Part shown: in pieces, positions 1,960 to 63,895 of the stretch | How positions within the stretch are numbered: position 1 is the first letter of the stretch | How the letters are laid out: each line of letters starts with the position of its first letter | NCBI GenBank assembly: GCA_031213475.1 | Contig: JARUPZ010000009.1 | Span: 10,697,601 to 10,761,600 of the forward strand | DNA: 64,000 nucleotides | Direction of reading: 5' to 3' | Source of the DNA: Nereocystis luetkeana | Taxonomy: Eukaryota; Sar; Phaeophyceae; Laminariales; Laminariaceae | The notes under the pieces: generated by a model | The model's database searches: none | Told to the model about the DNA's origin: nothing | The model's input: the letters and a program-made list of their open reading frames with translations, nothing else | Position numbers and translations under genes: made by a program

Positions 1960-4900
1960 CTCTTGCCATCTGACAATGTGCAGCATGATCTTCAACATGG
2001 ATCACTCATAACTTTCCCGAAAGAAGAAAACCTCGGAAACAAAAAGAAACCCATGCACCAAGTCTATCTCCCTTCCGTGCCAACTTTCAGCTTGTCTACT
2101 CTATCTGCTGTATGTACTACTATTAATAGCAGCACGAAAAAGTCTAAATCGCATCGACTTCAACACGAAAAGCAATTCGCTTTTTATTTTCCAATCCTCT
2201 GTGTGGTACAGACATGACATGTACCAGGTATGACCTGTCTCTAATCAATCGTCTGCCGATCACTTTGTTACCGTCGTAAGTTTTGTTTCCCCGATTTCCG
2301 AAAATATATACCTGCTCAATATGATTTCTTGCAAGCTGTACCTACTGATCCACCGCTGCCTGGACTCTACATGACATGAGGTTATGATAGCATGGTTCGT
2401 AAAATGAGTGTGCCTTTCCGTGCGTAAGGACGGGCAGGCTTTTGGCTTCCATCATCGCTCGAAACCGGAGCTGTGAGCCGTGGGTTCTTCTTCGAGGCGA
2501 GGGGAGACATTGTGCGATATATATACGGATAGCGGCAGACGTGCTTCCCGTACACACTACCGCCCTACGGACAAGGCAAACCACATCCTATTGACGGTAG
2601 TTGAGGGGGGTGGGGCGTCCTGCTCCCGCCGTGCTATCGTACTGCTGTACTGGCATGCCAGCACTCTGTCCCGTAATATAGTAACCGTATTTAACAATCA
2701 ATGAGGTGCGCGAGCGCGATGCGCGGGCCTTTTGGTGTTGGTTTTCCAAGGAAAAAGATCAGACGTTCAGTCCGAGCCGAACCCCGCCTGCTGGGGTGCC
2801 GCCTGTGCCGGTGCCGACTTGTCTCTCTCCACAATCGCACCAACACCAACTAACTGCGACTTCACGAAAAAGGACAAGCAAACTGAGAACAGCGCTCGAA
2901 TACATTTCATAGTGGGCAATAACAATATGAGCATAGATAGATAGGTCTCTTTTCTGCCATCTATCTCTCAATCGACCTAAGAGCGCCATTTTAACGTCAT
3001 CGACATCCATCTTTCTTCTGAGTGAAGCACGCAAGCAACCGGACTTGCCTAACGGCAATCCAAGCGTTTACCTCTCGACTCTCGTCGGTGTAGGCCATCC
3101 TCATCAGCACAGAAAACTATTGAATACACGTATCAGATACTGAAGTATGTGTGATAATGAATACCTCATAACATTACAGACAAATAAAATCGGAAAAATA
3201 AATGGACAGACAAATCGGAAAAATGGTGATGTGAATACAGCATTAATCGATCACTTTGAGTTAGTGTGGACTATTTTTTGTTTGTTTGTTTCAGACGACG
3301 ATATCATGTTTCACCGACATCGATAGCAAAGAGTTGTGCGCGCTGCCCCGCCAACAACGAACGGAGGGGCAAAGTGTATAAACGAACACAGCTAGCTACT
3401 GCCTGCAATTCATAGCTAGCCGTAAAACACGGAAAAATATATTGCGACGTATGTATGGGTGAGTTGTCGAAGGTATTGCAGATGTATAATATATTGGGTT
3501 GCTATTCAATAGGATTGATTGCAGATATATACCAGGTAGGTATGTTATTATTATTCCACTTACTTACTTACTTGCCAACCGACGATGTGCAGCAGCTCTT
3601 ATTCTATTATTAGTCACACCATCCTAGGTTGACAGGGGGGTTAGTTGCGAACATTTTGGGTTCAAGAATGGGACTACAAACAACGTATCGAGCTGCTATC
3701 CTTAACGGGCCTGCCAATCAATGTGTCGGGTGAGGTCTGCAAACAAACGTGCTGGGTTGTTAACGGGATAATCATTGCGGTTATTATATCGTATTGCACA
3801 TATATATGGCTGGGATTACACACGTAGTGGGCCTCTATATTCCTCCTCACTCGACAAGGAGTCCCACACGAGAGTTACTACTAATAAGATAGGAGGAGTA
3901 GAACATTCTTAAACTTATGCTCTACTTTGGAGGGAGAAAGTATGACCGACGCGACGTATATAGCAACCGGGAACATACGCTCCGTTCGTTACTTGTATCA
4001 TGCTCCAATCGGTGATTATAAACCCGCGGCCAGAGTGATGCCTGGTAAGAACTATTGGTTACCAGGTAATAAACATTACTGTACCTGGTATTCCACATCG
4101 TTGGAACCACATACTTGAGTTTTGGAATAAATATAGTTTCAATAACTCGTTCTATTTGCGAACAGTATCCGACTCGTAGAGAGCGCTGAAATCGCACGGG
4201 GGTGCGTCAGCTCTCTTTTTCTTCGGGCAACGTTGGGGAGGGGTGTGCTAGTGAGTACAGTCGAACACAATCAAGTTTTCGGAAGGCTCTACTGATAATA
4301 AATACTAGATAGACCAGCCCGTTCCGAAAACACCTTTTTCGATTGTTCGATGTTGTTGGCAACCTTCTTCCCGTTCTGTGAAAACAACTGAGCCTTGAAA
4401 ATGATGGGCACCCCTCCGCGATTTCGACGCCCTTCCCGGTGTCTAGGCCACCATGGCCTCGCTCCTTCGTTGGGATAAATGGATATCTGGTACCACTTTA
4501 TACCTGAATTTTCTTTTCTTTTTGAACACTACCATGGTAATATTTAAACAAAAAGTTTCTTGTACTTCAGGGACAGATTAATTTTAATAGTATATAATAT
4601 TTTCTCAAACCTGTTGTATTTTGGAGGATCGAGAAGACCTCCTCTATCGAGGTGCTTTCCCTACGTACGGGGGGGCTCATGAGCGCCTCCCCGCCAGAAG
4701 GATATGCTCTGGCCACGACGTGCTGCCCTCCCTGGTAGGACGGGCCGACCGTTTTTTGGCTTCGCCGGCAATGTCTATTGTGGCGCATCTTGTGATCTAT
4801 GACTCCCATACCATTCCTGCTGCAGAAAAAGCTGCCAGGTATGTCAGGGGAACAAGGAAAAAGAACGAACGGCAGACTACCTTCTTTTGAGAGCTAGACA

Positions 4901-5218
4901 GGGGGCGAGGGGGGGTTGCTGTAGAAGACTAAAACAGACAAAGAAAGCTGGATTTAAAAACAAAAATCATTTTATCGACTCGTATATATATACAAGGTTT
5001 CCCTTCGGGATGTGGGTGGCGTGAAATCCGGGGGGGAACGCAAATTGAAAGGAGAGACGCAGGTAAAACCCTTGCACCTCTTTTGGAGTAAAACTGATCT
5101 CGGAGTCAACTGAGTCATGGGATACTGTGTCGCTAAAAAAAAGCGAAGAGTAGTACTCGCAGTCCAGTCATCGAAGCTCTCGCATGGATTGACATAAATA
5201 TAGGAGGCATGGACTACT
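1960..5218. other. Unassigned non-coding stretch
   Basis: No protein domain, tRNA or long repeat was recognised in these 3.2 kb. Four TACCWGGTA words occur (2222, 3530, 4060, 4082); the last two are in inverted arrangement about 13 bp apart. The ORFs at 2342-2584 -, 2480-2704 + and 3922-4197 - have no recognisable motif. Confidence 0.45.
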
Positions 5219-5262
5219 GTGTATACTGTATACAGTATACAGTTATGTATACTGTACATAGA
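5219..5262. repeat. Nested palindrome built on GTATAC
   Basis: GTATACTGTATACAG-type units alternate with their inverse, giving overlapping perfect palindromes that could fold as a hairpin or cruciform. No gene adjoins it. Confidence 0.7.
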
Positions 5263-6213
5263 GAAATCCTAACGCTCCGATTTGTTTTTCATTTTTGATA
5301 CATTTCTTTGGAGGAATTTAGCGTCTGGGATTCGGATTCACTTGCTCCCCCGGGTTTGTACGTCCGGTATTATTATTATATACCAGTACATTTCATACTT
5401 CGTGCATTCGTAGTCATCACCACTGCACAGTATTTCTTCGCAAGCTCGGCGGGTGAAAGGTACAGCCAACCCTGAACGGCGTCCTGAGCAAACCATCCGC
5501 GGTCACGGATATCTCCGCCTCTGTGTTATATGCCCAAAAGTTACCGTCGTGCACCCGGTTCAAGATATATGCTCGTCGATTTATCCTCGACTTTTGCCAT
5601 CAGCCCTACACGTGAGTGAGTACCTAATATTGCTGATTACACGAAACCATCATTCCTGCGCTTCGACGTCCAGCTGGCCAGCGCCCAGCTGTAATGGATG
5701 GCCGCTTGCTGCTCATACATCCTATTACCCGATAGAGAAGTACACGCGCTGTGGTCACAGCCTTTCAATGCCATGCTTCTCCTTACAACATCAAATTAAA
5801 GTTCAGTCCAAGATTCCGAAGACCAACAAAGGTGCCCTCGGCATTGCGTTTTGGCGGCGCCCCACCCTGCATACTCAACAGTTAGTTAGTGTATGTATCT
5901 GGCAATAATATAGCGCTATTCATTACTGCTGTAACGCACTATGCGTGGGAGTACCGTAACCAATCAATGTACGTACTATATATGTGCTCACAACCGACAT
6001 GACGCCCCTGACGGCGGCGGAGGTGCACATCCCCTAGTTGACGACGCAGGTGGCGATAGGTGCTACCGTTTTCGACTGAGGCACAGCGGTACACACATAC
6101 ATACCTGGTGGTGCGAATCAAGGCACTTTTTGTTCGAACGTATTCCTGGACTGGTGGGAGCTTCTCCACTGAAACACTGTAAAAATACCATCCCAAAACC
6201 GTTATTTTTACTA
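5263..6213. other. Unassigned non-coding stretch
   Basis: ORFs 5453-5908 + (151 codons) and 5941-6255 + overlap this segment. Neither shows a domain or biased composition that would support a gene, and the second runs into MITE B. Confidence 0.4.
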
Positions 6214-7215: not shown

Positions 7216-7704
7216 CATTGACGCAGTTGCACTTGACCTGGTCAGTCGAGGCGATCTACGATAAAGAGGTACCACATTTATTTAAGAAAAGAAAGACCTT
7301 TCTGAGCAACCTGCGCCAGTCGAAGGAGATATACAGCAGTACCACGTATTACTATTATGCTTGCCTTCCGAAAATATAGCGCAGATGCCACTACAATAAA
7401 AACCGAATGCCCTTGCGTAAATCAGCAGTATTCCTCATGCACTTCTCCGCCAGCCGTTTCTCAATTTCCCTTCCCCACCTCATTTCGTTTTGGCTAGGTA
7501 TCATTTATCTGTATCTAAGTAGTATCGAAGTTGCGCGCCCCACACACCGAAATCATCAGTAATATCCTTATGTTCGTCGCTGTTCAACTCCACGTTAGAC
7601 CTTGGGGAGACATAGGTGTCTCAGAAAAAGTAGAATGTCTCAGTTATCACGTTAGACTCTGGGGAGGCGAGTTCTGCGACCAGAGGCAGCACATCCCCCC
7701 AGAC
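7216..7704. other. Unassigned non-coding stretch
   Basis: I see no feature here apart from a short duplicated phrase (cacgttagac near 7590 and 7650). Confidence 0.4.
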
Positions 7705-7925
7705 TGCTTGATGAACGACGGGGTTCCTTAACCCAAAATCATCGGAATGCCAATCTTATTTGAAAATATGACGTTTTTGTATACGTATTTGGGCCATGGG
7801 ACTACTCATCAGGATGAAACTTGACTTTTGCTGAAGTCAGTTTTCGGGTGAGGTGTGGAGCTCCCTCCTCAAGTGAGGAGCCTCAGAAAATTTGGAGTGA
7901 AACTCCTTCATCGTAGGACGCCTCA
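7705..7925 (+). mobile_element. MITE family A, copy 2 (left end missing)
   Basis: The core (ACGGGGTTCCTTAACCCAAAATC, GGAATGCCAATCTTAT, GTGAGGAGCCTCAG) and the decayed right end atcgtaggacgcctc are present. The left inverted repeat is lost. Confidence 0.8.
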
Positions 7926-9195: not shown

Positions 9196-10000
9196 TTCTC
9201 AACACTCCCCCTCAATGCAAGTTGCAAAATGCTAACAAGGTAAATCAATGTCTCAGAACGATAGAAACATGATCAAAGGAATGATCAAGGCTAACAATCT
9301 ACAGCACTTGTTGGAAGCGACACAAAAATTAGTGTCCATCACATGGCTAACGACCATCAACACTTGTTTGCCAGCGATACAAGCATTTCTAGCACGCAGA
9401 TGATGTAATGCTAAACCATAAATCTTGTGCAGTGAAATGTGATTCGAAACGTGTTTCGCACCGTGTAACATATCAATGGCCAATGTAATGCCAACCGATA
9501 CAGGATACATCGCACAACCCGAATATGTCTTGATAACAGGGGCTTAGACCTATGCCAATGAGAGTGCGACTTTCAAAAGTTGTTGCAAAATATTGCTTTC
9601 AAGAAACAGCCGAAGATCTTCTCGTACCGCCGCCTGAGTTTTTCTATAACCACTCCTGGCCCAATATCGGGCCCAGAATTGACGTTTTTCAGGGTTTTCC
9701 AAACGCTTTGGAAAATTTCAGTTTGAAGGATAGTGCTCATAGCAATTTGTACCTGAAATTTTCTCGCAGGTATCTTTGGAGTTCAAACTTCAAAAGGAAA
9801 AATTACGTTTCCATCGGCGTAGGTCTTGCCCGAGTTCAGTATCATGTACATTGAACCAATACAGCGTAGAGCTATTAGAAATGATCCCATTCCAGCTGAA
9901 TCAAAGATTACAGAACCATGCAACCCCCCCGTTCGCGTCGAAATAGCAACGAAGGACAACCGGCAGAGCCCCTTATACTTTCATTTCCTATTCTCTAGAC
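9196..10000. other. Decayed repeat-derived stretch
   Basis: The phrase ATGGCTAACGA(C/T)CA and neighbours at 9260-9500 recur loosely at 10850-11130 (GATCATGGCCAACGATCACT, GATGATGGCTAACAATCT). The phrase CCCT(C/G)(A/C)ATGCAAGT at 9210 recurs at 10318. This suggests scattered copies of one old element. No reading frame is intact. Confidence 0.4.
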
Positions 10001-10233
10001 GCGTTCTACGATAGATAGAGGTAACACATTTCCGCTAAACGTTTTCTGAATGACGGGGTTCCTTAACCCAAAATCGTCGGAATGCCAATCTTGTGTCGAA
10101 AATGTTCGTTTTTGTATACTTGGGCTACTGGAGTATTCGTCGGGATGCAATTCGATTTTTCGCTGAAACCAGTTTTCGGGTGAGGTTTTGAGCTCTTCAA
10201 GTGAGGAGCCTCAGAAAAACTAGGGTAAACCTC
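10001..10233 (+). mobile_element. MITE family A, copy 3
   Basis: The left end gcgttctacgatagatagag carries a 4-bp GATA duplication, also seen in copy 10. The core is well kept, and the right end is degraded after aacctctat. Confidence 0.88.
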
Positions 10234-11500
10234 TATTCCAGGCCCTGAATTCGCTGATCAACTGGAGGAGGTCGCGCTGCCTTAGACTCAGGCGATGAAC
10301 TTCCTTTCTCCAAACACTTCCCCTGCATGCAAGTCGCAATGTGAAAAATATATAAATGTCTCAAAGAACAGGTTGCTTGATTTATTTGTTGTCGCTTCGA
10401 CCGTGTGTCTTCTTTCGCTCTCACGCCGAGTCGATTGAATCTCGTTACCGATCAACGTCAAATCTCACACACTGCTGTCCTTGTCAGAGTTGCGCTGTCT
10501 GTGAGCTCACTGCAGGGGGTTCTCTACTCCGTACGCCTCACGCTCCTGCTGTGCACATCATTGGTGCCCATTGTGATGATGCCGCAGCAGACACAGGACC
10601 GAAAGCGTTGGCTAGCTCGCCCATTCCCGCACAAAATTTGAAATGGTAAGCGAAGATGAATAAAAGGACCCAAAACGTATCCTTATTGCCAGTTGTACTT
10701 ACTGTTGTTGCTTCGAGCACCTGCTTTGTGCTAAATATATATGGGAATAATATATATATCTACCTACTACCCAGTCTGTCCTTGCACTAAATTTGTTACC
10801 CAAGTACTGGCTACGGAATATGATGAGCAGTACCAGGTAGTAGATAGATTGGAATCGATAGAAACACAACTGAAACGCCGATCATGGCCAACGATCACTG
10901 GAACTACCGTAGTTGGAATCTGCGCTAAACTAAAATACGCCCTGACAATGGTTTACGGTAACCAGCACTTACTTACCTGATGAAGTGGACTTGTGAAACG
11001 GGTCTTGAACAAAAATAAATGAGAAGATGACAATCAAGGCCGAACACCACTTAATTGTGTGAAGCAGCAGCAGCAGAAACTTCGCACCAAATTGAAGGGC
11101 CGATGATGGCTAACAATCTCTAGCATTGGTCGGAAGCGAACACTATTTATTTGACGAACAAGCACCACATTACAGTAGTAGTAGTAGTGTTCGTGTGATG
11201 GATATCGATCTTCAGGGCTTGGGGGCAACAAATTCATTAGCGGACCATCAGTCTGCTTCTAGCACGCTTCTTTGCATGCAACCACCACGTAAAGCTGTCC
11301 TTCGAGGCTCTCGCGTCAGAGCCAATCGATAACCGTGCAGGTGCTTCTCGATCGGTGTGTTGTGTGGACTCCATTCAACTTCTATCATCCTGTATCTCAA
11401 GCGATATACCGAAACAGCAATTTCCGCAAGACAGACATGCCGGGTCAGTGTGATACCTGTGTGGGTGGTACCGCACCTGATCTCGGCACAGAGTACTCGT
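10234..11500. other. Unassigned stretch with old repeat pieces
   Basis: Contains the loose repeats noted for 9196-10000, AT-rich simple sequence near 10735-10765 and a TACCAGGTA at 10831. The ORFs at 10356-10649 + and 10405-10641 + are in alternative frames of the same DNA and show no domain. Confidence 0.4.
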
Positions 11501-12130: not shown

Positions 12131-12324
12131 CGTACTGATGAGCACAAAGTCTGGTCCATAAGCTTACTACCAATGAAGTGATGAAATACCAGCAACGCCA
12201 TGCAACACGAGGAGACACCCAAGAGCTATACCATCATAACTGTACTGCAAATGTATAGGGAAGCCGCTCGTCAACCTGAGCCACAATGGGCTCATGTACC
12301 GATGACATGTAAACCCCTCTGAGA

Positions 12325-12410
12325 CTGAAGTCCCGTCTTGGGGACAAACCAGTTAACTCCTGCATAGTTTGTCCCCCAAACCGTACCGCAGTCCTAGAAG
12401 GGTTAGAGCA
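12325..12410. mobile_element. MITE family C, copy 1
   Basis: An ~86-bp palindromic element. The arm CTGAAGTCCCGTCTTGGGGA with ACAAAC pairs with GTTTGTCCCCC..CGCAGTCC about 20 bp further on. It is decayed compared with the copies at 21497 and 41256. Confidence 0.75.
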
Positions 12411-17093: not shown

Positions 17094-20000
17094 GCGAGTG
17101 CGCAAAATACGTTGTGTCTGCTCCGTTTTAGTCGGCGCGGAAGGCTTTTCGTTTATCGAGGCAGGGATGAAGACACGAGTGAACACAGCTTTGAAACCAA
17201 CGGAGAACAGGGGGATTTCGCTGGACGATCATGGAGGAATGATCACCCACAATTGTTTGGGTGAGGCCACGCATACGTCTGTGAGGGTCGTCATGATCGG
17301 AGAGCCGCCTCCCCCCCCAGAATTTCCAGATTTGTGACGCTATCTTTTGCGTATTGTTCGTTATCTTCCAGAATTTTCAGAGTTTCCAGAATTGGTTTTC
17401 TAGATATGTGAAAATGCACTTTTTCTGATATTTTGTCCTCCGATAAGTTTCACAACTTATGACAGGTCGCCTCGGCGTCTAGATACGAAATTCTAAATTT
17501 TCTAAAAACTGAAAATTCTGGGGGTAAACCTCTCCGATATGTACACCCCTTTAGCATGCACGACCTCACCGAATGACGTTGGAAGGGTCATTTTTCCGTG
17601 ATCTTATAGTAAGAATGAGATGCTAGTGAGAAGGTCGCAGTGAGTGACGAATCGTGGTCAGTCGCGCCCGCTACTCCAATTTTTACTATTAATAGGTACC
17701 ACCCATACAGAGTACCGTAGCCTACTTATCTATGCTGGAGGTAAGGTAGTTCAAGTATGGTGCTACAATGCGATTGAAAGTAAAGACTTGCTCAGATCAC
17801 GACGTGTTTCTCGGTAGTAGGACATTTCCGCTGTTTTATTTTTCCGAATGAATGACGGCGTTCCTCAACCCAAGATCGTCGGAATGCAAATCGTATTTCG
17901 AAAAATGACGTTGCTGTAAACTTCGGTCATGAGATTATTCATCGGAATGCAATCTGGTTTTGGCCGAAGTCAGTTTGCGGGTGAGGTATGGAGCTCTTTA
18001 AGTGAGGAGCCTCAGAACAATGAGGGCGAACCTCTATCGTAGAACGCTTCGTAGGCCGAAAGTGTATACATGTATACCTGGTGTATCACTGATCGGAATG
18101 CACGGTTTTCGGTTTAGGTACGTATACAGATGCGGTCTACGTTAGGGACAATCTTAACGAGGAATGCTTTTCAGTTCAGTTTCATTATTTTCCCGACATT
18201 TCCGTATTTTCCTATAGGAAAAAACCGAGAAATAAATACCGAACTTTCGTGCAAATACTGAAATAAACCTAAGAAACAACCCTCGTTAAGATCGATCCTT
18301 AGAGGCAGCACATTCCCGCTACAAATGGTTTTAGATGACGGGGCTCTTTAACCCAAAATCGTCGGAATGCAAAACCTTGTTTCGAAAAATGACATGTTGG
18401 TGTACTTGGGTCATGGGAGTATTCATCGACACGCAATTTGGTTTATGCTTGTATCAGTTTTCGGGTGGTAAGCTCCTTGAAGCGAGGAACTTCAGAAAAA
18501 ATTGGGTGAACCTTTAACGTAGAACGTCTCTGAAACCCATGAAGCGAAGGGCCTCAGGGCAATTTAAGCGCACCCCTCTCGCACGAGCATATAATATTGT
18601 ACCAGTCTGATCGTGAATATAGTGGACGGTTAGATGGCAACAAAATGTCGAATGTACCTTGTGTTTCTGGCCAGAGGAGCACACTTCTTGGATAACGAGG
18701 CGTTGAGGCCGAGTCGGATTCGCGGCCAACCTGGGGCAGAGTTTTTTTATGACTTGATCACCGTACGTATACCGAGCGAATAAACGTAAACTTGTACTGA
18801 GGAACGTGCGTACTTGTTGTATGCTTTTGGTGGGGCATGGAGGCATGAGGTCGAGCTGACAGAAAGAAACTTTGATACATGCAGCGCCGACGCACTCAGG
18901 GAGCGTTCTAATTGGGTTTTCCGCAAGGTCACACGAGGGTCGGATATCAAGGAGGGCACCACTGTTACGATGCGCGACATCCCGTCATTTTGTCGACAAA
19001 CCGGCACCCCCAAAGAGGCCCAACTCGTTCCCCCGTATGCTTCGGCTCCAACCCGCAACTCCTACGTACTCCTGTTACTGTACTGCAGTAACGACCTACT
19101 CTACACCACAAAGACACCCAGCATTTCCCCCCATGTCTAGGAGAAAAAACGTACAGTTATCGACTTTCATCACAACATACATGTTTTCTTCCGTTCATCC
19201 CATTTATTAACCTCGCCCATTTCTTTGATCTCTGCTTCCCGGTCGCGACTCCGTTCTGGGGTAACACGGTGTCATATCCCCACGACGTACGGTTCTTGGC
19301 TTGCGATTTTTTTTATCGCGATGAGAATACGCGTTGTACGATAGAGGTAGCAGATTTCCGCCAAAATGTTTTCTGAATGACGGGGCTCCTCAAACCAAAA
19401 TCGTCAGAATGCCCATCTTGTTTCGAAAAATTACCTTTTTAGCATACTTGCGGGGTGCAATTTGGTTTTTGCCGAAGTCAGTCTGCGGGTGAGGTGTGGA
19501 GCTCTTCAAGTGAGGAGTCTCAGGAAATGTAGGGTTAACCTCGATGATGGTAGAACGCCTCGAGAGGACTTCAGCAATTTCTTCCCTCCTCGTCTTCTCG
19601 CATCGAACTGACGCCCAACGTCCCTCGTACCACATACCCTGGTGTATGTTTCGGCCGCCAAGTGAAACGCTTACCGTATACGGTAGTAGCAACCAACTGT
19701 TCGTGAGTGAGTGACCTGGCACCGATTTAAGTACCGTGCTTATCCCTACCGCCGTATCATATGTCCCCAGAACAATCTTCGACATAGCCAGCCAGAGGAA
19801 CCTCCGATCCGCTTCCTCACCCGCAACGTTTGGCCGTCTCGTGCCGACCAGATTGACCTTCGCTCGGCCGAGGTCATCGAGCCCATAGCAAAGTCATTGG
19901 ACAGGGGAGGAGGAATCGTGAACCAAGGATGGGATCGCGTTGTGTTCGCGATTGATCCGAGCTTTGCTACCCTGCACCTGAGCTCCGTGGGAAACTGGGA

Positions 20001-23000
20001 CGAGAGCAAGAGACGAGCCGCTCGAAAGGTCCTCCGAGAGGCTAGGGACAACTTCCACGTGCACCCGCGACCGTGGTAATTATGCAGTAGTAGTACCCGG
20101 TGGTGTCTCATTCACTCGGCCTGTTGGCTTGATCGATTTCACCACCACCTGGTACCGTGCATGTTGTTCTTGTTGAGGTGAAAACCACTCCCGCAAGGCC
20201 CTACGGAAGACGAAGGTACAACTCCCACGTTCAATCGCGACCATATATTATATGGTAAACAGTAAGTGCGTTTCAAATGGCTCTGGTAGCGCTGTAGTTA
20301 TCGACGAGCGGTAGTTATTTACTGACTGATCCGGCCAGCAGATTCGCAGGTAGGTAGTTTTTATAGCACGTACGGCCAAGAAACACCCCATCCATGTTGA
20401 AGTACGGAAGCCCTCACTACATATGCTGCGGGCGGGGAGAGTAGAGAGTAGATACAGCGTACTGCGAAAATTTAGCAAACTGGTCGATTATGTTGACGGC
20501 AGTATATATTCACTACTGATTTGAGTAAGCCAGCGCCCAGCACCACGAGTACGTACGAATCCCCAGATCGGCTGAAAATATCCAATTGGGGAAACCAGGT
20601 ACCCAGCGGCCAGATGAGAGTGATATCGACACCAAACCTTTTTCGAAGTGAAGCTTCCCGTACGTGGGAGTAGAAACGCATTTCAAGTCGGCTGATTGGC
20701 CGATTGATGGGCGTTCGCCCGATTTCCGCCCGCCCGCTCGCTTGATCAACCACCACCACATCCGTTGTTGGTGTTTTGATATTCCCCCGTGAACGCATCG
20801 CCCCTATCTACTCCCAGTGATCTCGAAAGACAATAATATATAAAACTTGTTGGGGAGGCAGAAAAGCGGAAGCAAACCCACGACAGGCACAGCAACGTAT
20901 ACGACGGGCCCGCAGTACTTACAGTACGGGTTCGCTAGCAACAAGGAATCCCTATTCGGGGCAGGCCTAAGAAGGTTTACCGTGACACGACTCTCGAACA
21001 ATCTCTTGAGCATACAGTAGACTAGTCTATTAGGTTTCAGTGCAGCTTTCGCCGCTAAGGATATTTTCTTCATTCAGAGTAATTTAGTAGAGTTCCCCCA
21101 AGAGTTAGCCCGACGTTCTCATCAGGTTAGTGCTTGTTCGTGTGCCCATGTCTACATGCACTCATACTTCAAGTTGCGGCGTTCGTATAAAGCTGTGGCC
21201 GGCCCCAATCTCTCACATAGCACATACTTGCTTTATTGTCTTCACCGCTAGCAACGGCCGCGGGCGATGTACTCGAGTAACGCATGGCCGGAATCGTCTG
21301 ACCATACATAGACTCTCGGATCCCTACAATGCTGGGACGGAGTGCGTCGGGTTTTAACCGACCGGACAGGGGGGTGCACTCGATATAATGGATGGCCGTA
21401 GTCGTATGACCATAGACCCTCGCATCCTTACAATGCCAAACCGGAGCCGCCAAAGCTCAGCCAGGTTAATCTAGATCCCAATCTACTCGTCAACTTAGAA
21501 CCGCAGTCCCGTTTTGGGGGAAAACTACTTGAAATTTGACTGGTTTGTCCCCAAAACGGGACTGCAGTTCTAATTGGGTTAATACAGCGAATCAGTCCCA
21601 ACCTGCTATTGGTCATGCCGGCTCTTCCCGCATTGCGATCTCTCGTTCTTCTTGGAGTAGGCACGATGCCAACCCGTATATACTACGTACCAGATATGCC
21701 TTGTTTATCACATCAGCTTTTGTGCATGTCATATCTGGACTAGGGGTTATGCACCTCTACCCGTCCCCTGCTTGGCGCGGTGGGATATTGATTTTCAACG
21801 TACAGCACTCTCGTACGACGTTTTCAAGACCCGGTGGTGTTAATATCTATATGCCAACGTACCGTAACCTCTCGTCCATATCGGTGCACGATATGCAGAA
21901 GCTGGGTTAGAATGCTCAACCCTACGACAATCGGTTGTGTGGAACGCAGGCAGGTCCGATAACTGACTGTCGTGTGGTTGTTGAAGTCGGACATCCCCTG
22001 ATATGTATGGCCTGTACTGTCTAAATCATGCCCGGCGGGAGGGGGGGTTTATAGCGCGGCTCTTGTGCGCGTGCTGGCCGGGTGATATATACCCACGGCA
22101 CGTCCCTCTCACACAACATTGCACACCAAAACGACAAAAAATGTAGTGTCTCGATGAGATCGTGATCTGCCGCAGAATACCTCACAAGGACGAGCATATG
22201 TATAGTGAGTATACAATCTACATCGTAATCTGTCCGGCGTGTGCAATAGTGCAACCGTACGACTGATCCCATCCGACGTTTCGCCTGGCCCTCCCGCTTT
22301 TTTATGCCTCACTCTAACTACTCCCTGGTGGTATATAGGTACGACGGCAGCCCAAAATGCGCGTACGACGCCGCGAGGCTTAACATCGCCCTCCACGTAC
22401 GCATGGGGGATCGGCGGGCTTTCCAGCAAGGATCTTTGCAGTATTTTCAGTATTTAGAATCGTTTATGGACATCGTGTCGACGGAGGTGACTGGGATGGG
22501 CCTGGAGCCGCCGATTTTCCATGTGTTCTCGGAGACCGTTTTGCCTTGCCCGTCGGCGCACGCGGGATTGTTCGACGAATTCTGGACGTGGCCGGTGGAG
22601 CTCGATCAGGTTTGGAAAAGCTCAAGAGCTTCTTGTTGTGCTTGCTGTTGGTGTTGCTGTTCTTGTTCGTAAGGTCTTGAGGTCTTGCTCTCGTTGTTGT
22701 TATGTTTGTTGATTCAGTTCTCACTTTATGTTCTTATTCTTGTTCTTGTTCAGGTTATTGTTCTTGATCTTACTCTTGTTCTTGTTCCTATTATTGTTCT
22801 TGTTCTTATTCTTGTTCGTAGTCTTGTGATTATTATTTTCATTGTTCTTGTTCTTGTTCTTATTCTTGTTCTTGTTCTTATTCTTGTTCTTGTTCTTGTT
22901 CTTGTTCTCGTTCTTGTTCTTTTTCTTATTATTGTTCTTGTTCTTGTTCTTGTTCATGCTCTTTATTCTTGGTGTCGGTCTTGTTCATGCTCTTTATTCT

Positions 23001-41255: not shown

Positions 41256-41347
41256 CCTTTTAGAACCGGAGTCCCGTTACGGGGGCAAACAATTCAAATT
41301 TCAAGTTGTTTGTCCCCAAAACGGGACTGCGGTTCTGAAGGGGTTAA
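41256..41347. mobile_element. MITE family C, copy 3
   Basis: AACCCTTTTAGAACC...CCCGTTACGGGGGCAAAC pairs with GTTTGTCCCCAAAACGGGAC...GGTTCTGAAGGGGTT around an AATTC-rich loop. The full inverted structure is present. Confidence 0.9.
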
Positions 41348-42171: not shown

Positions 42172-42192
42172 GTGAGCAATGACACAGCATTA

Positions 42193-42297
42193 TTACGGGG
42201 GACCATAGTTAATAGGACCTATGGTATTCATAAAAAACTATATATTTAACCATTTTTACTAACAAAATTTGGTCCTATTAACTACGGTCCCCCGTAA
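42193..42297. mobile_element. MITE family B, copy 8 (just after a splice donor)
   Basis: TTACGGGGGACCATAGTTAA and the inverse are nearly perfect, with TA on both sides. It starts 21 bp after the donor GT of the exon ending at 42171. Confidence 0.95.
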
Positions 42298-42662
42298 TAG
42301 TAGCAGTCCGTAGGTACAAAAGGGTAGGCCCCTCGGACGGACCACCCGTTAGAGGAAGACATATCAAATACAACATGTATGTGGGATCTCATAATAATAT
42401 GCGCGCACGTCGTTAATGCCCAGTGCTACAAGGAAGTACGGCAGGCGGGGCACCGTTGTTTTTACTGCCCGCTGGGTAACAGAGATAGATAGAGATGTTG
42501 ACCTACGCGGAGGAGGAAACAAAACTCTCCGAGACCGCGCATATCGCAGAAGAAGCAAGAGGCTTGGAAAAGCAAGAAGTGGATAGTCAATCGGCCAAGT
42601 GGCGCTCAGCAACCATCGACACAGGAACTAATTGCCCCTATTGTTCGTACCACCAGTTCAAC

Positions 42663-42722
42663 TACCAGGTAGGTATGTATCTGGTATCTGGTATCTGGTA
42701 CCTGGTATCTGGTACCACTGGT
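42663..42722. repeat. Tandem GTATCTG/GTACCTG repeat
   Basis: Six or so 7-bp units GTATCTG with one GTACCTG. It includes exact TACCAGGTA (42663) and TACCTGGTA (42699) words. Confidence 0.85.
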
Positions 42723-42823: not shown

Positions 42824-42889
42824 GAACCGGCACCGATTGATGATGGACGTTGATTCATGCCACGTACCAGGTACCAGGTATTTAGTAAA

Positions 42890-44240
42890 GAACTAAACAA
42901 AGTACGTCAGCTGCGAATTCAACCGATCGGCAGATCGATCGATACTCAACTTTGCAAGCTGCGTGAACCGTCCGCGCGTTTTCCATTATTTCCCTAGCGA
43001 TCGACTGGCTGGTGACTCCCCTGGATGCTACCTGGGTCGGCGAGACGATAGTACTTGCATCTTTTCGTACACTGAAACAGCGAATCGACACTCGGAGGTC
43101 GGGGTACACAAGACAATCGACAGTTGTTTTACACCAGTTTAATCGTGACGGGCATGAATACGCGAGGGAACTTCAGCCCTGGATGCACTACAGCAGTACA
43201 CGGGTACTGCAGCTGTACCAGGCATGTATCATACCAGTATGTCAAAGATATGAAGAAGACCGCCGTTATTTCAGTTATTTCTGGACTCTACCAATAATAG
43301 TATGTACAATGTATTGTTCAGCTACAAGTAGTAGTAGTACTAGTGGTATACCTGGTATAGTCTAGCTGGGCAGTCAAACCCATTGCACTATTAATTGACG
43401 TGTGTTGTCCTACTCGTCGACCTCGTCTACTCTGCCTACTACTGCGTAACAACGTCTGCTATGACGTAGTAATGGGACCACACAGCTTTTATCTTCAGGA
43501 CTAAAGAATCGGCGCTGACGCTATTTGTACAAAAGGTACTTATGTTTAGGAACATACTGACTGGTACACACACGTTATCGGCACGGGCGGTAGGTGTGCT
43601 GGGAGGCCGACCGCTAGAAAACATAAAACAATGCTGTGACGTCTCGCTCAACTATACTTAGGAAGGCTACACATATGTCATCATAACAGAATGTTGTGGG
43701 GCTCCACTCTTGATTGATTGAGTGTGCGTGTTTGTTTTGTGTGTTCTTCATATTTTACCGTTCTTTCTACCCGTCGACATCTATCTATTCTGGCACACAG
43801 TGTCCGTGCCGATTCGCACAAAAGTTCTGTGGTCACAAAACTACGCCACAGAGGTATGCTACATCTATCTGCTGTGCAGTAGTAAGCAAGCGGAGCAGGC
43901 AATGCAATGCCATCTTCATGTATGTACATTGTGTAGATCTCTACCTCACCGAAAACAGTAGAAATACTACGTATGTATAACAGCAGTACTTTTAAGAAAG
44001 TCTGCGAAGTGCCGTTTCAGTGCGCGATATGGTACTGGCCGAAATCAATTGGAAATCGAGCCTGTCAGTATTATCCTCTCGTCGACTCTAGAAGCATCCA
44101 GGGGAGAGTCACCGGCCAGTAGTCAATCACGGGGGAATACATGGAAAACGCGCTAACGGTTATCACGCATTTATTTTGCAAAGATGAATATCGACCGATC
44201 GGTTGAACTTACAGCCGACTGACGTCTTTGTTTAATTTTT
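42890..44240. mobile_element. Foldback element with ~200-bp terminal inverted repeats
   Basis: The left arm runs from TAAACAAAGTACGTCAG through CAACCGATCGG, CAACTTTGCAAG and CTCCCCTGGATGCTACC to a GTACACTGAAAC block. The same blocks recur in inverse order at 43990-44240, ending at CTGACGTCTTTGTTTAA. The interior (~950 bp) contains repeat E but no transposase. It is likely a non-autonomous DNA transposon. A solitary arm-like copy is at 23630-23870. Confidence 0.75.
43735..43960 (+). repeat. Repeat E, copy 1 (inside the foldback element)
   Basis: Phrases GTGTTCTTCA, ACCCGTCGACATC, CAGTGTCCGTGCCGATT, TGTGGTCACAAAACTACGCC and CACAGAGGTATGCTACAT are shared with the copies at 44.3, 46.6, 53.3, 53.5 and 63.5-64.0 kb. 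The class is unknown; it is ~200 bp and non-coding. Confidence 0.75.
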
Positions 44241-44324
44241 ATGTATAAAACAAGTACCTGGTAAGAAACACCCGACAAAGGAGAGCACAACAACCAATCG
44301 CCAGCTACACTGCTATTCCATAGA

Positions 44325-44560: not shown

Positions 44561-45237
44561 CATACACATTCTATGAAAGAAAGGAAACGAAACAGGCAAA
44601 CAAAAATCCGAAAAACAAATAAAAAACACTGCCAGGTACCCTGGTACGTAATAACACCACAATGTCATGTAGAGTAAGGCCACGAACGGAGGCACATCAC
44701 AGGCAAGCCGAAACACAACAAAAGACTAAAAGTACCCTACAGGTGGCCGCACCATTTTGTTGCAAGAGTACGCTATTAAATCCACGCTGTGGCACCCAAC
44801 CAAGGGTCTCCTGGCCCCCGAGTTTCCGGTCAGTCTATTTAATAGTCACTAGCTATTTGATTGGAACAACAACAACAGCAAAAAACGTTGCAGCGGATAG
44901 AATTTGGGCAGGTTTGGCGTACGGGAGAGCGGGACTTGAAAGAGTCTCATCACAGCAGCTTTTCTTTCGCTCGAGATTGATATTTGGCAGGTCCCCAACA
45001 GGAACAGAGGCCTACGCCTCTCTCTGCTGCAGTGGTCGGAATTGATTGGTAGAAATTTGGAGCGCACAAAAATGTGAGACGAAAAACTACCCCCGGCTGA
45101 CAGCGTTTGCACTTCACTTGCGGACAGCCACAGCTAGCTCCTCCCAAGATACTCCAGTCCGCGAAATTTACGGATTCTCCTGATTGATGGAGTGTGTGAG
45201 GGCGTCGGGTGCGCCAGACGGCAGTCCTACGCGAGGA
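44561..45237. other. Unassigned stretch
   Basis: ORFs 44662-45045 + and 44849-45112 - overlap and have no motif. A TACCCTGGTA variant is at ~44638. Confidence 0.4.
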
Positions 45238-45400
45238 CCTTTAACAATCTGGGAGAAGAGATCTTTCGGTTGGTAGGCTATTCAGGTGTTTTGGTTCAAG
45301 GTACGGGCGAAGACCCAACCCAACCCCTGACTCTAACCCTAACCCTAACCCCGACCCCAAACCGCAGCCAAAACGGGCCAAAACTCGCCATAAACGAGGG
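45238..45400. repeat. Dispersed repeat T with telomere-like core, copy 2
   Basis: Direct homologue of 39718-39900. Its core has only about three CCCTAA-type units, so the telomere-like tract differs in length between copies. Confidence 0.8.
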
Positions 45401-46256
45401 GAGGGGAAGAGGGAGGTCTCGTACGCAGCCAGAACCCACTCTAGAGGAGTTTTTGTGTACTCGAAGTGGCGAGCGAGTAGCACGAAAAGCTCACAAAAAC
45501 GTCAAATTGTTTCGTTTCACGCAAGGCTAGGGGAGCATATAGCACAATTGCTACACCCCCAATTAATGTAGAAACTTTGGTCTTCACTACACTATTTATT
45601 GGTGTTCTTGACGCGGATGATATGCCTCTTCAGAATAAAGAGTCGTGGTCGAAGATGCCGCCGGGTGAACAAGTACGTTCCCATGATGGGTAGTAAATTA
45701 GTGGGCCAAAAAAACGCACAAAAAATGGACCATAGAAGCTCAGGATTCTTGTATACCTGTATCGACCAGTCTATGTCGACAAAAAGAAATACGGATCTTG
45801 GTGGCCAATACCTTACGCTAGTTTCAAGTCGTATGTATGTTATATGTTGCCGACACGCCTACTACGCAGGGGTATTTCTACGCATCCCTGAAGATGCTCG
45901 TGTCCCCTTAAGTAATGAATCGGTAAGAAATTGAGTCTCGGATTTTCAGGAAGAATAATAAGGACTTCGGCGTTAGTTAGAATTATCGCTTCAATTTATT
46001 TGAATGACAATAATATGAGACATTGCAGCCTCTACCAGGATAAGGAACACCAGCGATCGACGCCCACACGAGAAAACAAACGAACTCCCATTCGGAAACG
46101 CCGAACAAAATAAGAAGCGCGGGCTACACCACTTTGTACAACACCCAACACACCCTGGAATCATCCTCCTGCAGTGTGGAGGGTCGTGTGTTCCTTCGTT
46201 TTTGGTCAGTTTATTATTTTTTTTTTAATATTCGGATAACATTCCCCTAGCTATTA
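45401..46256. other. Unassigned stretch with repeat M
   Basis: ORF 45599-45934 + has no recognised motif. The part at 45945-46190 matches 62075-62265 (ACACCAGCGATCGACGCCCA, CACACGAGA, CAACACACCCTGG, CAGTGTGG), so it is a dispersed repeat. Confidence 0.5.
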
Positions 46257-46341
46257 TTACGGGGGACCGAAATTAATAGGATCAAATATTGTTAGTAGAA
46301 ATGCTTAAATGGATACCCTGGTAGGTTTTTTATGTAAACCA
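46257..46341. mobile_element. MITE family B, copy 9 (right end lost)
   Basis: The left end TTACGGGGGACCGAAATTAA and the loop region are present. A TACCCTGGTA insertion is found in the loop at 46314-46323 relative to other copies. The right arm is missing. Confidence 0.82.
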
Positions 46342-46584
46342 CATGAAGAAATATCAGCTAGCTGATGATCAAAGCGCAAAAAAATGACAATAAAGGAAGG
46401 TAGGTCTGAACCAGCTGCAGTAGCTGCCGCTGCTGCATTAATTTAGGTTGGCCGAAGGAGTAGCATATATATGCTCCACTTACTATTTATGTCGGCCTGT
46501 ACGATGATGACATGGCGGCATTGCTTTGTCTATTCTATACCAGGTATACTGCATAACAATGTCGTTGTAGGAATACATTTATTA

Positions 46585-48717: not shown

Positions 48718-48888
48718 GCAGCTTGTCCCCGAGACGGAACAGCAGTCCTAAATAAAGCGGTTAGGCTGGAAAATAATAATGATGATAAAAGCTTAACCCT
48801 TTTAGGACTGCTGTCCCGTCTCGGGGACAAACTGCTTAGAATTTGAGTGTTTTGTATCCACAACGGGACTGCATGTCTAAAAGTGGTA
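48718..48888. mobile_element. MITE family C, copies 5 (half) and 6
   Basis: A half element at 48718-48757 (GCTTGTCCCCGAGACGGAAC...) is followed by a full copy at 48796-48888 (AACCCTTTTAGGACTGCTGT to CGGGACTGCATGTCTAAAAG). The half copy is inverted with respect to the left arm of the full copy, so together they make a larger hairpin. Confidence 0.8.
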
Positions 48889-49160
48889 ATTCGTAGGAGG
48901 TGCTTAACCCTCGAGCGATCTTCTGCACAGGCCGGGGTCACAAGTAGAGGCCACCCCTTCTCCCTCCCGGCACCTGCCTTCATTGTTATCGCGCATACGG
49001 TTCAGTTTTGCCAATGCTCGTCGATTTTTATCGAAAGTTGTTGACTCACTTTCCGCTATATATATATAATATATGTAATACGAGCACTCATTTTGTTTTG
49101 CAAGAAAAACCTTACGAACATGCACTCGGAGAGACTCGAAGCTACGAAATTGATCTTAGG
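48885..49160 (-). mobile_element. tRNA-derived SINE, copy 2
   Basis: Homologous to 28200-28507 throughout (TCGTAGGAGGT at the end, CTGCTCGTCGATTTT-like middle, GAACATGCACTCGG near the head). The B box is decayed (GCTTCGAGTCTC on -). An (AT)n expansion at 49063-49080 is unique to this copy. Confidence 0.75.
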
Positions 49161-49667
49161 TAGGCGATGATATGATAGTCGGGGGACAACTCGTGCACCG
49201 GGTGATGCGTCGCACGAGCTTGCCATGAGGCGCGGGATAAGAAGTTGAAAACTGCGAAATACGATATAAATATCAAATTATTGTTGTGCGGCCAAAGGCA
49301 GCCCTCTTCTTTTTTTCTCCAGTGTAACGCTGGAAAATCATCCTTAATCGTAAAATTTTCATATGTATATGGAACCCATTCGGGGATGCATAACATCCAC
49401 CGTATATTTCCATAGATCAATTTGCCGTTACGTAAATCACATCACAATCAGCCCAATCAGACTCTTAGGTACGAGCAGATCCCTCAATCTTCCTGCTCGT
49501 GTCCACATCATCAGTCATGATATTTTTCATCGAATCATAGTGGCATCACAAAAAAATAAAAACAGTCCATCCCTCTGGTGAGACGCTCTGAAAAATCAAC
49601 CATCAACGCAAACAAATTTACAAGCTGTGACTTAAATTCTTGCTTTACAAAAACAACGTCTTTCGAC
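49161..49667. other. Unassigned stretch
   Basis: Nothing recognised beyond short ORFs on both strands. Confidence 0.4.
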
Positions 49668-49923
49668 TCGTTCTACGATAGATAGAGGTAGCACATTTCC
49701 ACCACAACGTTTCTGAATTGCAGGGCTCCTTAACCCGAAAATCGTCGGAATGCCAATCTTGTTTCGAAAAATAACGTTTTGGCATACTTGGGCCATGGGG
49801 TTAGTCATCGGGATACAATTCGATTTCTGATGAAATCAGTTTTCGGGTGAGGTAAGGAGCTCCTTATAAGTAAGTGAAGAGCCTCAGAAAATTTAGGGTG
49901 AACCTCTATCGTAGGACGCCTCT
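49668..49923 (+). mobile_element. MITE family A, copy 10
   Basis: The left end ttctacgatagatagaggta carries the same GATA duplication as copy 3. The right end aacctctatcgtaggacgcc is well kept. Confidence 0.93.
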
Positions 49924-50230
49924 TTCCAGCCTTACTATCATTTCAAATCGAAACCTTCAGTAAAAAGATTTTAAGCCTCAAGAATCGTGCTAATGTTAAG
50001 GTTCATTATTATCGGAGAGTGTTTTTTCCATAATTTCCAAAGTCTGGAAATAGTTGGAGATATATGGATCAATATACGGAGGCGTTCTGTCACTATTCTT
50101 GAAATTCTCCAGAAGAACCAAAAATATCAAGTTCGTTAACATTCCAAAATTTGGGAAAAAAAAGGAAAATATGGAAGATTGAAAAATTGCGCGAAGAAAA
50201 TGTAAAAAATTTGGGCTAAAAGCTCTCCGA

Positions 50231-54275: not shown

Positions 54276-54585
54276 GAGCAACCCTGAAAGGTTCGAGTAT
54301 GAAGTGTGAACGCAACCCACACGTACGCGCGCCCAAATTCCGTGCCCTTGCGTAAAAATTAACAACCCGCAATGTAATGTAGGTATAAACAGTACGTCAG
54401 AAAAGGAAGGTAGATGTACTGGTACAAGATACCTGGTAAGTCAGAAGTTGAAAAATAAAAAACGAAGATCGTGCGAGTCCTACCTCGGCAACGAAACTTC
54501 TGTCATGTACACTCAGAAGTACTCACACAACTGACGCGTTGTAGTTTTTACGCGATTGAAAACATATGTAGGATCTCTTAGAGTA

Positions 54586-54838: not shown

Positions 54839-54954
54839 TGCTGCCCGTACATACCAGGTATATATGATGTTACCCATCACGCATCAATGCCTATCGTAGT
54901 GTGTAGACATGCAAAACGAATTCAGTTTCATAGTACTGTACTTGTCGTCGCAAG

Positions 54955-56104: not shown

Positions 56105-56109
56105 GACAC
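56105..56109. repeat. Target-site duplication, left (GACAC)
   Basis: GACAC directly before the left LTR is repeated directly after the right LTR (60409-60413). Five bases is the usual length for LTR retrotransposon integration. Confidence 0.95.
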
Positions 56110-56522
56110 TGTTTGTGGTATGCGGTAGCTTGATACGGGTCTGCGGATATTGGGGGTTTCATATGTTGTGGGGTTTCGTATTATGTATCGGGGCATTGTT
56201 TAGTATGCCTCGTGGCTCGTGGATGGAGAGATGGAGCTGCTCCTCCGGGAGCAGTCGATGATGTTAATGATACGGCTCAGGCTTTGATGTTAATGATACT
56301 GCCTGTCTATATGTGAGTGGTGCAGCCGGTGACAATCTTGGTGCGGTTTAGCTCCTGTGTGTGGTTTATGTGGTGGGGTCTCTGACAGAAAGGTATTGAT
56401 CCACCTGGTGTGTGTTGTGTTTGGCTTATTGTAACTAGTATTTTTTTGCTCTTCCTCTGCGATCATGGTGTAGACCACGCGTGTATCATGTGCACGCGTC
56501 CGACAGCTCCTGTGATCAAACA
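56110..56522 (+). repeat. Left (5') LTR
   Basis: 413 bp. By eye about 15 substitutions and a few small indels separate it from the right LTR (roughly 95% identity). Near 56436 it has a plain TA where the right LTR carries TACCAGGTA. It contains the palindrome CTCCTCCGGGAGCA region. Confidence 0.95.
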
Positions 56523-59991: not shown

Positions 59992-59992
59992 C

Positions 59993-60408
59993 TGTTTGTG
60001 GTATGCGGTAGCTTGATACGGGTCTGCGGATATTGGGGGTTTCATATGTTGGGGGGTTTCGTATTATGTGTCGGGGCATTATTTAGTATGCCTCGTGGGT
60101 GGAGAGATGGAGCTGCTCCTCCGGGAGCAGTCGATGATGTTAATGATACGGCACAGGCTTTGATGTTAATGATACTGCCTGTCTATATGTGAGTGGTGCA
60201 GCCGGTGACAATCTTGGTGCGGCTTACCTCCTGTGTGTGGTTTATGTGTTGGGGTCTCTGACAGAAAGGTATTGATCCACCTGGTTTGTGTTGTGTTTGG
60301 CTTTATTGTAACTACCAGGTAGTGTTTTATTCGCTCTTCCTCAGCGATCATGGTGTAGACCACGCGTGTATCAACGTGCACGCGTCCGACAGCTCCTGTG
60401 ATCAAACA
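59993..60408 (+). repeat. Right (3') LTR
   Basis: 416 bp, TGTTTG to CAAACA. It contains TACCAGGTA at 60313-60321, absent from the left LTR, and lacks a 6-bp piece (in CGTGGCTCGTGGATGG) that the left LTR has. Confidence 0.95.
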
Positions 60409-60496: not shown

Positions 60497-60542
<46 letters not shown>

Positions 60543-60562: not shown

Positions 60563-60849
60563 ACAACTCGTACGTATGATATGAGTATACCAGGTACAAA
60601 ACAAATGAGAATATCATACCCACCAGGTACACCAAGTCACAATGTTATTCACTATCCTATCAATCCTATCATAAACAACAGCCGGTGTTACTATTGCCCC
60701 ATTTGTACGGACTCTGTGTGTACCGCTCTAACCTCGGATCTGAGATGCACAAGGAAAATGTGGCCAAGACGATGGATGGGTGGGATGGAAAATGATATAT
60801 TTATTTACAACGGTCCTTGATCCCGTCCCAAACACACGCCTCGCCTCAG

Positions 60850-62800: not shown

Positions 62801-63535
62801 CAAAGCGAAATGTGGACACACAAAACAAAACGGTCCCCGTTCCCCCGTAGGTGTTGTCAATGTTATCCTGAGCGGGCGGAGGATTGGTCCTGTTTTCCTT
62901 CAGTCTTAATCGTTTTTCACTTTTTCAAGGTCAACCGGATAACATCCATTCCCCCGCCGCCAAAGTCCCCCTAGAAATGATAAATGCCCCGCTTAAGAAA
63001 TGGAGCGGTTGAAGAAAGCCCATACAAATAAGAAACGTATGTTCGATAAGTACAGCCGTAGTATACCCGCAAGGGAGGCAATTGGACCTCAGCGCTAAAC
63101 TGGAGTTTGTTAATCCCGGGCCTTAACTGCATATTCAGTAGGACTATAGCTAGGAGAGATAGATACTAAGAAAGGCGAGAAGCATAAATGGGAAGGAGAG
63201 ACAGAGAGGGGGAAAAAATCGCAACACCTGGTGCCAAGTACTACTCGAGACGCGGCGGAGATAGGTTCCAACTTCGTCTACTGATGTAGCTCGTTCAAGG
63301 CGGACATATTCCCTCCTTTCTTGTAGGATCTATGCTGTACCTGGTATGAATAGTTTTCAATAGTTGCTGTGGTTACTGTTGCCGAGTGATGCCCCTACAA
63401 TCTGCATGATTTAAACAGGAGTATAGTAGTCAGGACATGGTTTCTGGGTTGGATCGGTACTCCGCGGATCCTGGACAATTCCTCTCACAAGGGCAGGCAA
63501 GGAACCACTGCTGCTGTAGATGATCTATTAATAAT
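62801..63535. other. Unassigned stretch
   Basis: No gene or known repeat recognised. One TACCTGGTA at 63338. Confidence 0.45.
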
Positions 63536-63544
63536 GGTGTACTA

Positions 63545-63895
63545 CTGTATATATATATATATGAATATTCCTGGCACCAGGTATGTCACGACCTGTCGGA
63601 GGTGTGGTGCTGGGTCTGGAACGAGCACGAGAGGCCCCCATCTCAGTCTGGCTGTACGTAACACATCTATCTGCTTTATACATACCTGGTAACAAATAAC
63701 AAAGCAGTATATATATATATATATATATATGTGGCGTAGCTTTTTGACCACAAAACTTGTACCTGGTACACCTCCCTGCGTACGTAGGATTGAAGGATCG
63801 GCACAGACACCGGTTGTGCTGGATGTCGACGGGTAGGAAGAACGTACACACCATACACAGCTACAGCAGCACACCGCATTGTACAATTAGTAAAA
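63545..63895 (-). repeat. Repeat E, copy 6 (inverted), expanded
   Basis: The inverse of repeat E phrases (CACATCTATCTGCTTT, GTGGCGTAGCTTTTTGACCA, GGATTGAAGGATCGGCACAG, GGATGTCGACGGGTAG). It carries an (AT)n tract at 63706-63731 and two TACCTGGTA words (63683, 63760) that other copies lack. Confidence 0.75.

Follow-up and report, generated by a model that had tools for sequence, protein, structure and literature searches.

The TA-flanked word TACCWGGTA in the Nereocystis luetkeana genome: probable excision footprint of a TA-targeting transposon

The nine-letter word TACCWGGTA occurs throughout the genome of the kelp Nereocystis luetkeana at about 100 times its background frequency, and we consider it probable, at roughly 85%, that the word was left behind at excision by a cut-and-paste transposon with TA as its insertion site and ends starting with CCAGG. 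The word came to attention in a 64,000-nucleotide stretch of assembly GCA_031213475.1 (contig JARUPZ010000009.1, positions 10,697,601 to 10,761,600; hereafter the window), where an initial annotation made from the letters alone had suggested the footprint of a TA-targeting transposon with CC(A/T)GG ends. Clean insertions at TA, a spectrum of imprecise scars at a single site, and a palindromic target preference all support this suggestion. The accompanying idea of an unknown mobile system went too far; the best reading is a transposon of the known pogo/Tc1-mariner superfamily, whose 5-bp scar is unusually uniform and whose scar load is very large.

Abundance of the word

Exact counting recovered all 21 copies that had been reported for the window, 12 with A and 9 with T at the centre, whereas 100 dinucleotide shuffles of the window gave a mean of 0.41 and a maximum of 2. 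TACCWGGTA heads the window's ranking of 9-mers once simple repeats are set aside. Among four-letter arms with mirrored partners at spacings of 0-8, TACC-N-GGTA has the best ratio (22 versus 1.0), its middle letter being A or T in 21 of the 22 cases. The massive over-representation claimed from the window extends to the whole genome, in which 182,395 copies were counted in 465,085,209 bases, or about one every 2.55 kb; the reversed pattern, used as a control, gave 1,744. TAGCWGCTA, a TA palindrome of the same composition, occurs 2,039 times and its reversal 3,729 times. Thus, the shuffles, the reversed pattern, and the TAGCWGCTA control together exclude chance as the source of the word. Membership of one long repeat family is likewise excluded, as the flanks of the 21 window copies are unrelated by eye and share only a weak target consensus.

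The window is typical of the genome in this respect: a blind sample consisting of the 10-kb stretch at 1.0 Mb of each of contigs 1-20 contained 77 words, with 0 to 9 per stretch, at an equal density. A literature search returned no paper with TACCWGGTA as a whole word, and no such genome-wide scar is reported in the titles and abstract openings retrieved.

Insertion at TA

Comparison of related sequences with and without the word, in contexts unrelated to one another, showed that TACCWGGTA behaves as a discrete unit inserted at TA. Within a pair of long terminal repeats (LTRs), LTR1 (56109-56522, + strand) reads AACTAGTA and LTR2 (59992-60408, + strand) reads AACTACCAGGTAGTG, the latter having gained CCAGGTA at the TA of LTR1 to form the word at 60313-60321. 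A second comparison involves MITE B, a common family of miniature inverted-repeat transposable elements (MITEs) with a favoured TA at its centre, which also served as a genome-wide scar trap. The copy at 46250-46341 carries an insertion at 46314-46323 that is absent from six other window copies, four of which have TA at the site and two a related sequence; the copy at 42186-42305 (+ strand) is one with an empty TA. In repeat E, the word at 63760-63768 compares untidily with the window's own copies and cleanly with an empty relative outside the window (L138:1577). All three comparisons had been proposed in the initial annotation. Those for the LTR pair and repeat E hold, the latter through its outside relative, and that for MITE B holds as an insertion at TA, although the inserted form is the 10-mer TACCCTGGTA rather than the 9-mer. 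Further sampled cases with and without the word are found in MITE B (L146:7056) and in L132 repeats (L132:3768 and L132:3808).

For a broader survey, the word was reduced in silico to TA and aligned with its relatives for 94 of 98 words. A spanning relative was available for nine of these (85 had none), and seven of the nine have at least one gapless empty relative. Two of the seven are weak, as the relative reads CA for L133:735 and TT for the window word at 46538-46546 (relative L130:8822). The clean 7-bp gain leaves the TA target duplicated around the scar, as in footprints of Tc1/mariner-pogo elements.

A spectrum of scars at one site

The central TA of MITE B allows many outcomes at a single position to be compared. 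Genome-wide, 6,333 matches are empty at this TA and 1,352 contain an insert of 3-33 nt; the first 100 of the 1,352, on contigs 1-3, were classified. The single exact word accounts for 51 of these inserts and 74 contain CCWGG, ten of them twice. Minor forms comprise CCGG (5), CCATGG (2), CCA (2), and CCAGGG/CCCTGG (3). Among the minor forms, the commoner ones consist of pieces of CCAGG-starting ends joined to their mirror image, as imprecise repair of such ends would give. Single inserts reading CCAAGG, CGAGG, CG, and CTTTGG do not fit this pattern, and some inserts are decayed words. In this set the main scar is 5 bp long, outside the 2-4 bp of Tc1/mariner-pogo footprints, and the 3-, 4-, and 6-bp forms are minor. 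The CCATGG form recurs genome-wide 3,002 times (623 for its reversed control), CCWGG being about 60-fold commoner. In the window, counts of arms and spacings located 6-nt forms at 4530-4539 (TACCATGGTA, CCA+TGG) and 44637-44646 (TACCCTGGTA).

Seven of the same 100 inserts belong to another set (CTCCGGAG, CTCCGAG, CTCCG, and CGGAG), three of them coming from one tandem array. Another palindrome that resembles a scar, TACTCCGGAGTA, was counted 391 times genome-wide against 20 for its reversal, and TACTCCGTA and TACGGAGTA forms are seen at the central TA of MITE B; it may have been left by a different TA transposon whose ends carry CTCCG. Separately, TATTAATA is over-represented in the window (2120, 17686, 39636, 48365, and others; 12 versus 0.57 expected), as is CTATTAATAG (4 versus 0.02 expected). 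MITE B itself, whose ends read TA-TTACGGGG, could leave TATTAATA on excision.

Target preference

Flanking sequences were compared for 75 of the 98 words, after exclusion of those less than 40 bp from another word or near the end of a stretch, against a background of other TAs from which simple A/T repeats had been removed. Sixty of the 75 lie outside the window, providing 120 half-sites from 20 loci, to which the following values refer; p values are uncorrected for about 84 tests. At position -1, a purine is present at a frequency of 0.85 versus 0.59 in the background (p 6e-10), followed by T at -2 (0.43 versus 0.26) and A at -3 (0.42 versus 0.26). Strong signals reappear at -6 (A, 0.52 versus 0.25, p 5e-10) and -7 (A or T, 0.80 versus 0.52, p 6e-10), and positions -8 to -14 gave none at p<0.005. 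The -7 signal was initially seen in the window and was reproduced in this independent sample.

Such a palindromic A/T-type preference around TA is characteristic of Tc1/mariner-pogo elements, here with extra contacts at -6/-7. The Sleeping Beauty transposon has the target consensus AYATATRT, with which the scar flanks agree from -1 to -3. They agree also with the palindromic AT insertion preference described for the related element ZB in the relevant part of PMC7913693.

Decay and clustering

One-letter variants of the word were counted in 264 kb of sequence (including 2,500 N) and compared with a second-order Markov model. Transitions are enriched (63 versus about 18 expected) more than transversions (52 versus about 35), some of the G-to-A variants lying within microsatellites. 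The annotation had raised methylation at CCWGG as an alternative source. Transitions at CC/GG (25 versus about 8) show no greater enrichment than those at TA (38 versus about 10), and cytosine methylation was therefore rejected. Forms with C or G at the centre number 10,882 genome-wide against 1,899 for the reversed control, an excess about 1/20 that of the A/T-centred forms. Decay alone could explain this excess; its small size makes it seem that new scars are nearly all A/T-centred and drift later.

The words also cluster. Among 79 gaps between neighbours, 15 are 50 bp or less where 1.5 are expected, and five of these are 7-bp overlaps. Overlapping pairs of this kind number eight among the first 100 listed genome words and five in the 264-kb sample. 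Their centres differ in three of the eight and one of the five, that is, in 4/13, where half would be expected if the two events were independent. The four pairs with different centres can be accounted for by a second insertion at one and the same TA.

Proposed mechanism and alternatives

The element would have the structure 5'-TA-CCAGG...CCTGG-TA, its TA being duplicated upon insertion. When the transposase excises the element, a few nucleotides from the tip of each end would stay behind in the donor site and be sealed there by end joining. Were these nucleotides CCAGG 3' overhangs on both sides, they would anneal as C:G, C:G, an A-A mismatch, G:C, and G:C; mismatch repair would set the middle to A or T and thereby produce TA-CCWGG-TA. 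Partial loss or fill-in would give the minor forms CCGG, CCATGG, CCA, CCAG, and CCAGGG/CCCTGG. The element presumably hops mostly without multiplying, so that its scars would build up and be eroded by ordinary point mutation. The overhang logic is that of the Sleeping Beauty scar TACWGTA, in which CAG overhangs give CWG, with two more base pairs. The sections of PMC7827188 on Sleeping Beauty describe footprints that equal the 3' overhangs, and the kelp scar resembles them in having TA on both sides of what would be the outermost nucleotides of the element.

Stowaway MITEs, too, have been described (part of PMC1925063) as leaving short fragments of their ends flanked by TA repeats, with varied scars at one site and re-insertion into old scars, in one intron of one gene; in the kelp, a highly uniform scar is spread genome-wide.

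We advance only tentatively, as a proposal that may well fail, the fuller scenario of a pogo-like lineage with a 5-nt CCAGG stagger that hops mostly without multiplying, with scars that outnumber its surviving copies at least a thousandfold and rank among the commonest insertion mutations of the host. The stagger would be new relative to the ranges of 2-4 bp and 0-4 bp stated in the portions of the cited papers that treat scar length (PMC7913693; PMC9976928).

The rival that survives best, although we judge it rather unlikely, derives the footprints from an ordinary 3-nt stagger: CCA overhangs would meet with their terminal A's opposed during end joining and be resolved as CCA+GG or CC+TGG. 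A 3-nt stagger is described for Sleeping Beauty and one of two or three for mariner, in the parts of PMC7827188 and PMC2642840 that deal with cleavage, and the minor CCA and CCATGG inserts at MITE B, as well as the genome-wide CCATGG excess, are what this rival predicts. Simple fill-in should, however, favour CCATGG, which is far rarer than CCWGG, and the CCAGGG/CCCTGG inserts imply that an end can leave behind more than 3 nt.

Far less probable is a product of a CCWGG-cutting endonuclease of the EcoRII type, perhaps carried by a mariner. EcoRII cuts before CCWGG and leaves a 5-nt overhang of the required letters. Algal viruses offer a precedent for such carriage in Mariner-1_OLpv, which the relevant portion of PMC3627910 describes as having an EcoRII-C-like protein and a C5 methyltransferase. 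The TA flanks and the TA-centred target preference are nevertheless features of a transposase, and the minor scars include forms that lack CCWGG. The EcoRII-C profile (PF09019) found no match in the kelp genome, the control genomes being silent too.

Slightly more improbable still is a palindromic binding site for a protein, such as a transcription factor or insulator site, kept by selection. The symmetric flank preference extending beyond the palindrome would suit it; the word nonetheless arises as a 7-bp insertion at TA, decays chiefly by transitions, and overlaps itself in tandem, and the related scars CCGG, CCATGG, and CCA occupy the same TA. Least credible is a template-free or tandem-slippage process making 7-bp CCWGGTA units locally, which would account for the frequency of 7-bp-shifted pairs, for the nine of 13 that share a centre, and for one word lying within a 7-bp array, but would leave the first unit unexplained, along with the single occurrence of most window words in unrelated flanks and the target consensus shared by the insertion sites.

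A candidate parent element

A search of the genome with the DDE_1 profile (PF03184) gave 28 matches, and of four such loci analysed over 9-10 kb, one, L161, has candidate ends. At L161:3062-9191, an inverted pair 6,130 bp apart is bounded by TA, and both ends start with TACCAGGT. The ends are of the TA-CCAGGT type, the left one reading TA-CCAGGTG, and they agree at 23 of 28 letters, differing at five. The enclosed open reading frame (ORF) matches DDE_1 (3.4e-23) and HTH_Tnp_Tc5 (PF03221; 1.3e-4, with 22.3 bits, the cut-off being 22.2), a combination of DDE_1 transposase and Tc5/CENP-B-like helix-turn-helix that marks pogo-like elements. A second ORF at the locus is without a Pfam match. The same arrangement is seen at L159, L160, and L161, where a second ORF, of 212-270 aa, comes after each DDE_1 locus; it has no Pfam match, carries similar-looking motifs, and may encode an accessory protein or represent a later exon.

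In a test of 472 TACCWGG pairs more than 800 bp apart, drawn from 20 loci, three transposase loci, and positions 1-60000 of the window, the inner match of L161 (16/21) was the best, followed by 14 and 13. In the genome, 590 sites lie within three mismatches of the L161 end, compared with 23 for the control, many of those listed being the scar word plus chance similarity. The first letters of the end are shared by the 5' inverted terminal repeat of Mos1, which begins TA-CCAGGTGTAC in the primer table of PMC2642840.

On these sequence matches, L161:3062-9191 may tentatively be regarded as the parent of the scars or a relative of it, and surviving copies would then look very few beside the 182,395 scars. 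The initial annotation had recommended looking for elements bounded by TACCTGG...CCAGGTA near a transposase; this yielded L161 as one tentative candidate and nothing in the stricter search described below.

Several observations weigh against the L161 assignment or against the footprint reading as a whole. The scar is linked to L161 by five or six shared letters, and random pairs, a baseline that includes microsatellites and real inverted repeats, reach 15/21 at a rate of 0.0015, corresponding to chance expectations of 0.02 for the 11 pairs of L161, 0.13 when the three transposase loci are taken together (86 pairs), and 0.7 over the full set of 472, so that the L161 match may be fortuitous. Its 19-letter end, searched as an exact string, has one copy in the genome. 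The looser end-pair test found no parent in the 20 loci and window positions 1-60000. In 288 kb containing more than 100 words, the strict search detected no inverted ends of the TACCWGG type; it used an exact 8-letter seed and spans of up to 6 kb, settings under which L161 itself would have escaped. Inverted TA-CCAGGT ends were absent from three other DDE_1 loci over 9-10 kb and from six DDE_1 loci of 3.3-3.6 kb (four of them the same places). The DDE_3 profile had no match in the genome, the control genomes having matched; Transposase_1 (PF01359) had none either, with control genomes also silent, and in this the kelp differs from the Mos1 mariner.

Scar length points the same way. The parts of PMC7913693 that treat Tc1/mariner elements give scars of 2-4 bp, and the kelp scar differs both in being 5 bp long and in its roughly 182,000 copies in one genome. 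The pogo-type element Passer, which the L161 candidate resembles in having PF03184 and PF03221 and, putatively, inverted ends next to a TA target, leaves scars of 0-4 bp according to the corresponding part of PMC9976928, and the candidate is further set apart by its length of 6.1 kb and a second ORF of no known family. In addition, two of the nine words with spanning relatives (L132:9110 and L136:8093) have no gapless relative; some overlapping pairs with the same centre may stem from tandem duplication; and some of the filled MITE B copies may have been inherited within subfamilies, so the filled fraction of 1,352/7,685 (17.6%) is no count of independent events.

Other features of the window

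The remaining window words, located by exact match with no strand assigned, read TACCAGGTA (A-centred) at 2222-2230, 3530-3538, 4060-4068, 10831-10839, 27045-27053, 54852-54860, and 60588-60596, as do the words at 46538-46546 and 60313-60321 discussed above. Those reading TACCTGGTA (T-centred) lie at 4082-4090, 41164-41172, 43349-43357, 54430-54438, 63338-63346, and 63683-63691, in addition to that in repeat E. Several of the words between 42663 and 44263 lie in or beside repeats. One TACCAGGTA word (42663-42671) adjoins a 7-bp tandem array at 42677-42714, and a TACCTGGTA word (42699-42707) lies within that array and may thus represent no independent event. The overlapping pair 42865-42873 and 42872-42880, both TACCAGGTA, may reflect re-insertion at the TA of the first word or a 7-bp duplication. 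A further TACCTGGTA word (44255-44263) lies at the border of a dispersed repeat common to 42865-43055, as does the word at 42865.

A Pfam search with 20 selected ORFs, out of 108 of at least 110 aa in the window, matched solely the retrotransposon domains RVT_1 and Integrase_H2C2. Two further motifs are enriched, TACGAGTA/TACTCGTA (441, 11494, 26382, and others; 9 versus 2.2 expected) and TACWGTA (24 versus 9.8 expected), and are possibly additional TA footprints. Another MITE with a CCCGTTTTGGGG core is present at 21495-21582, 41260-41347, 12319-12406, and 48802-48889 and outside the window at L142:8651-8751, where its end reads TTAACCCTTTTAG; it resembles a TTAA-targeting MITE of the piggyBac type. 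About ten window copies of a repeat of roughly 250 bp (678-937, 7668-7924, 9992-10236, 17817-18052, 18300-18531, 19329-19562, 24787-25042, 35991-36255, 38343-38593, and 49659-49925) have apparent mirrored ends (TTCTACGATAGAGGT) and short indels close to the ends. Internal telomere-like (ACCCTA)n tracts occur at 39804-39861 and 45318-45399, within a repeat common to the two places.

Viral contigs were searched for the same word. At least 120 viral stretches have close word pairs, and the 120 listed, which were picked for pairs, contain 310 words in 1,073,211 bases. Of these words, 29 sit more than 150 bp from another, which places the density far below that of the Nereocystis luetkeana genome. 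Several of the word-richest stretches are evenly spaced arrays. One A+T-rich viral stretch of 14,080 bases (L094) has five copies of TACCWGGTA across 11.6 kb, with G or A in front of four; these are perhaps a regulatory palindrome, unrelated to the kelp genome as far as can be seen. The MITE B pattern had no matches in viral contigs, and a second repeat pattern had none in genome or viral contigs, in a search from which records of the window's own genome were possibly excluded.

Implications

Published scars of the superfamily measure 2-4 bp and are hard to count against background. With nine letters including its TA flanks, and an occurrence about 100 times background, the kelp word would in principle allow past hops to be mapped and dated by their decay, and would provide a measure of the choice of target, of re-insertion nearby, and of the natural outcomes of repair. 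If the proposed origin is true, a DNA transposon has reshaped this genome far beyond its surviving copies, leaving about 180,000 intact 7-bp insertions in 465 Mb, and a 5-nt stagger would widen the known cleavage geometry of the superfamily. The scars would then preserve, in readable form, the hopping history of an element that is now seemingly rare.

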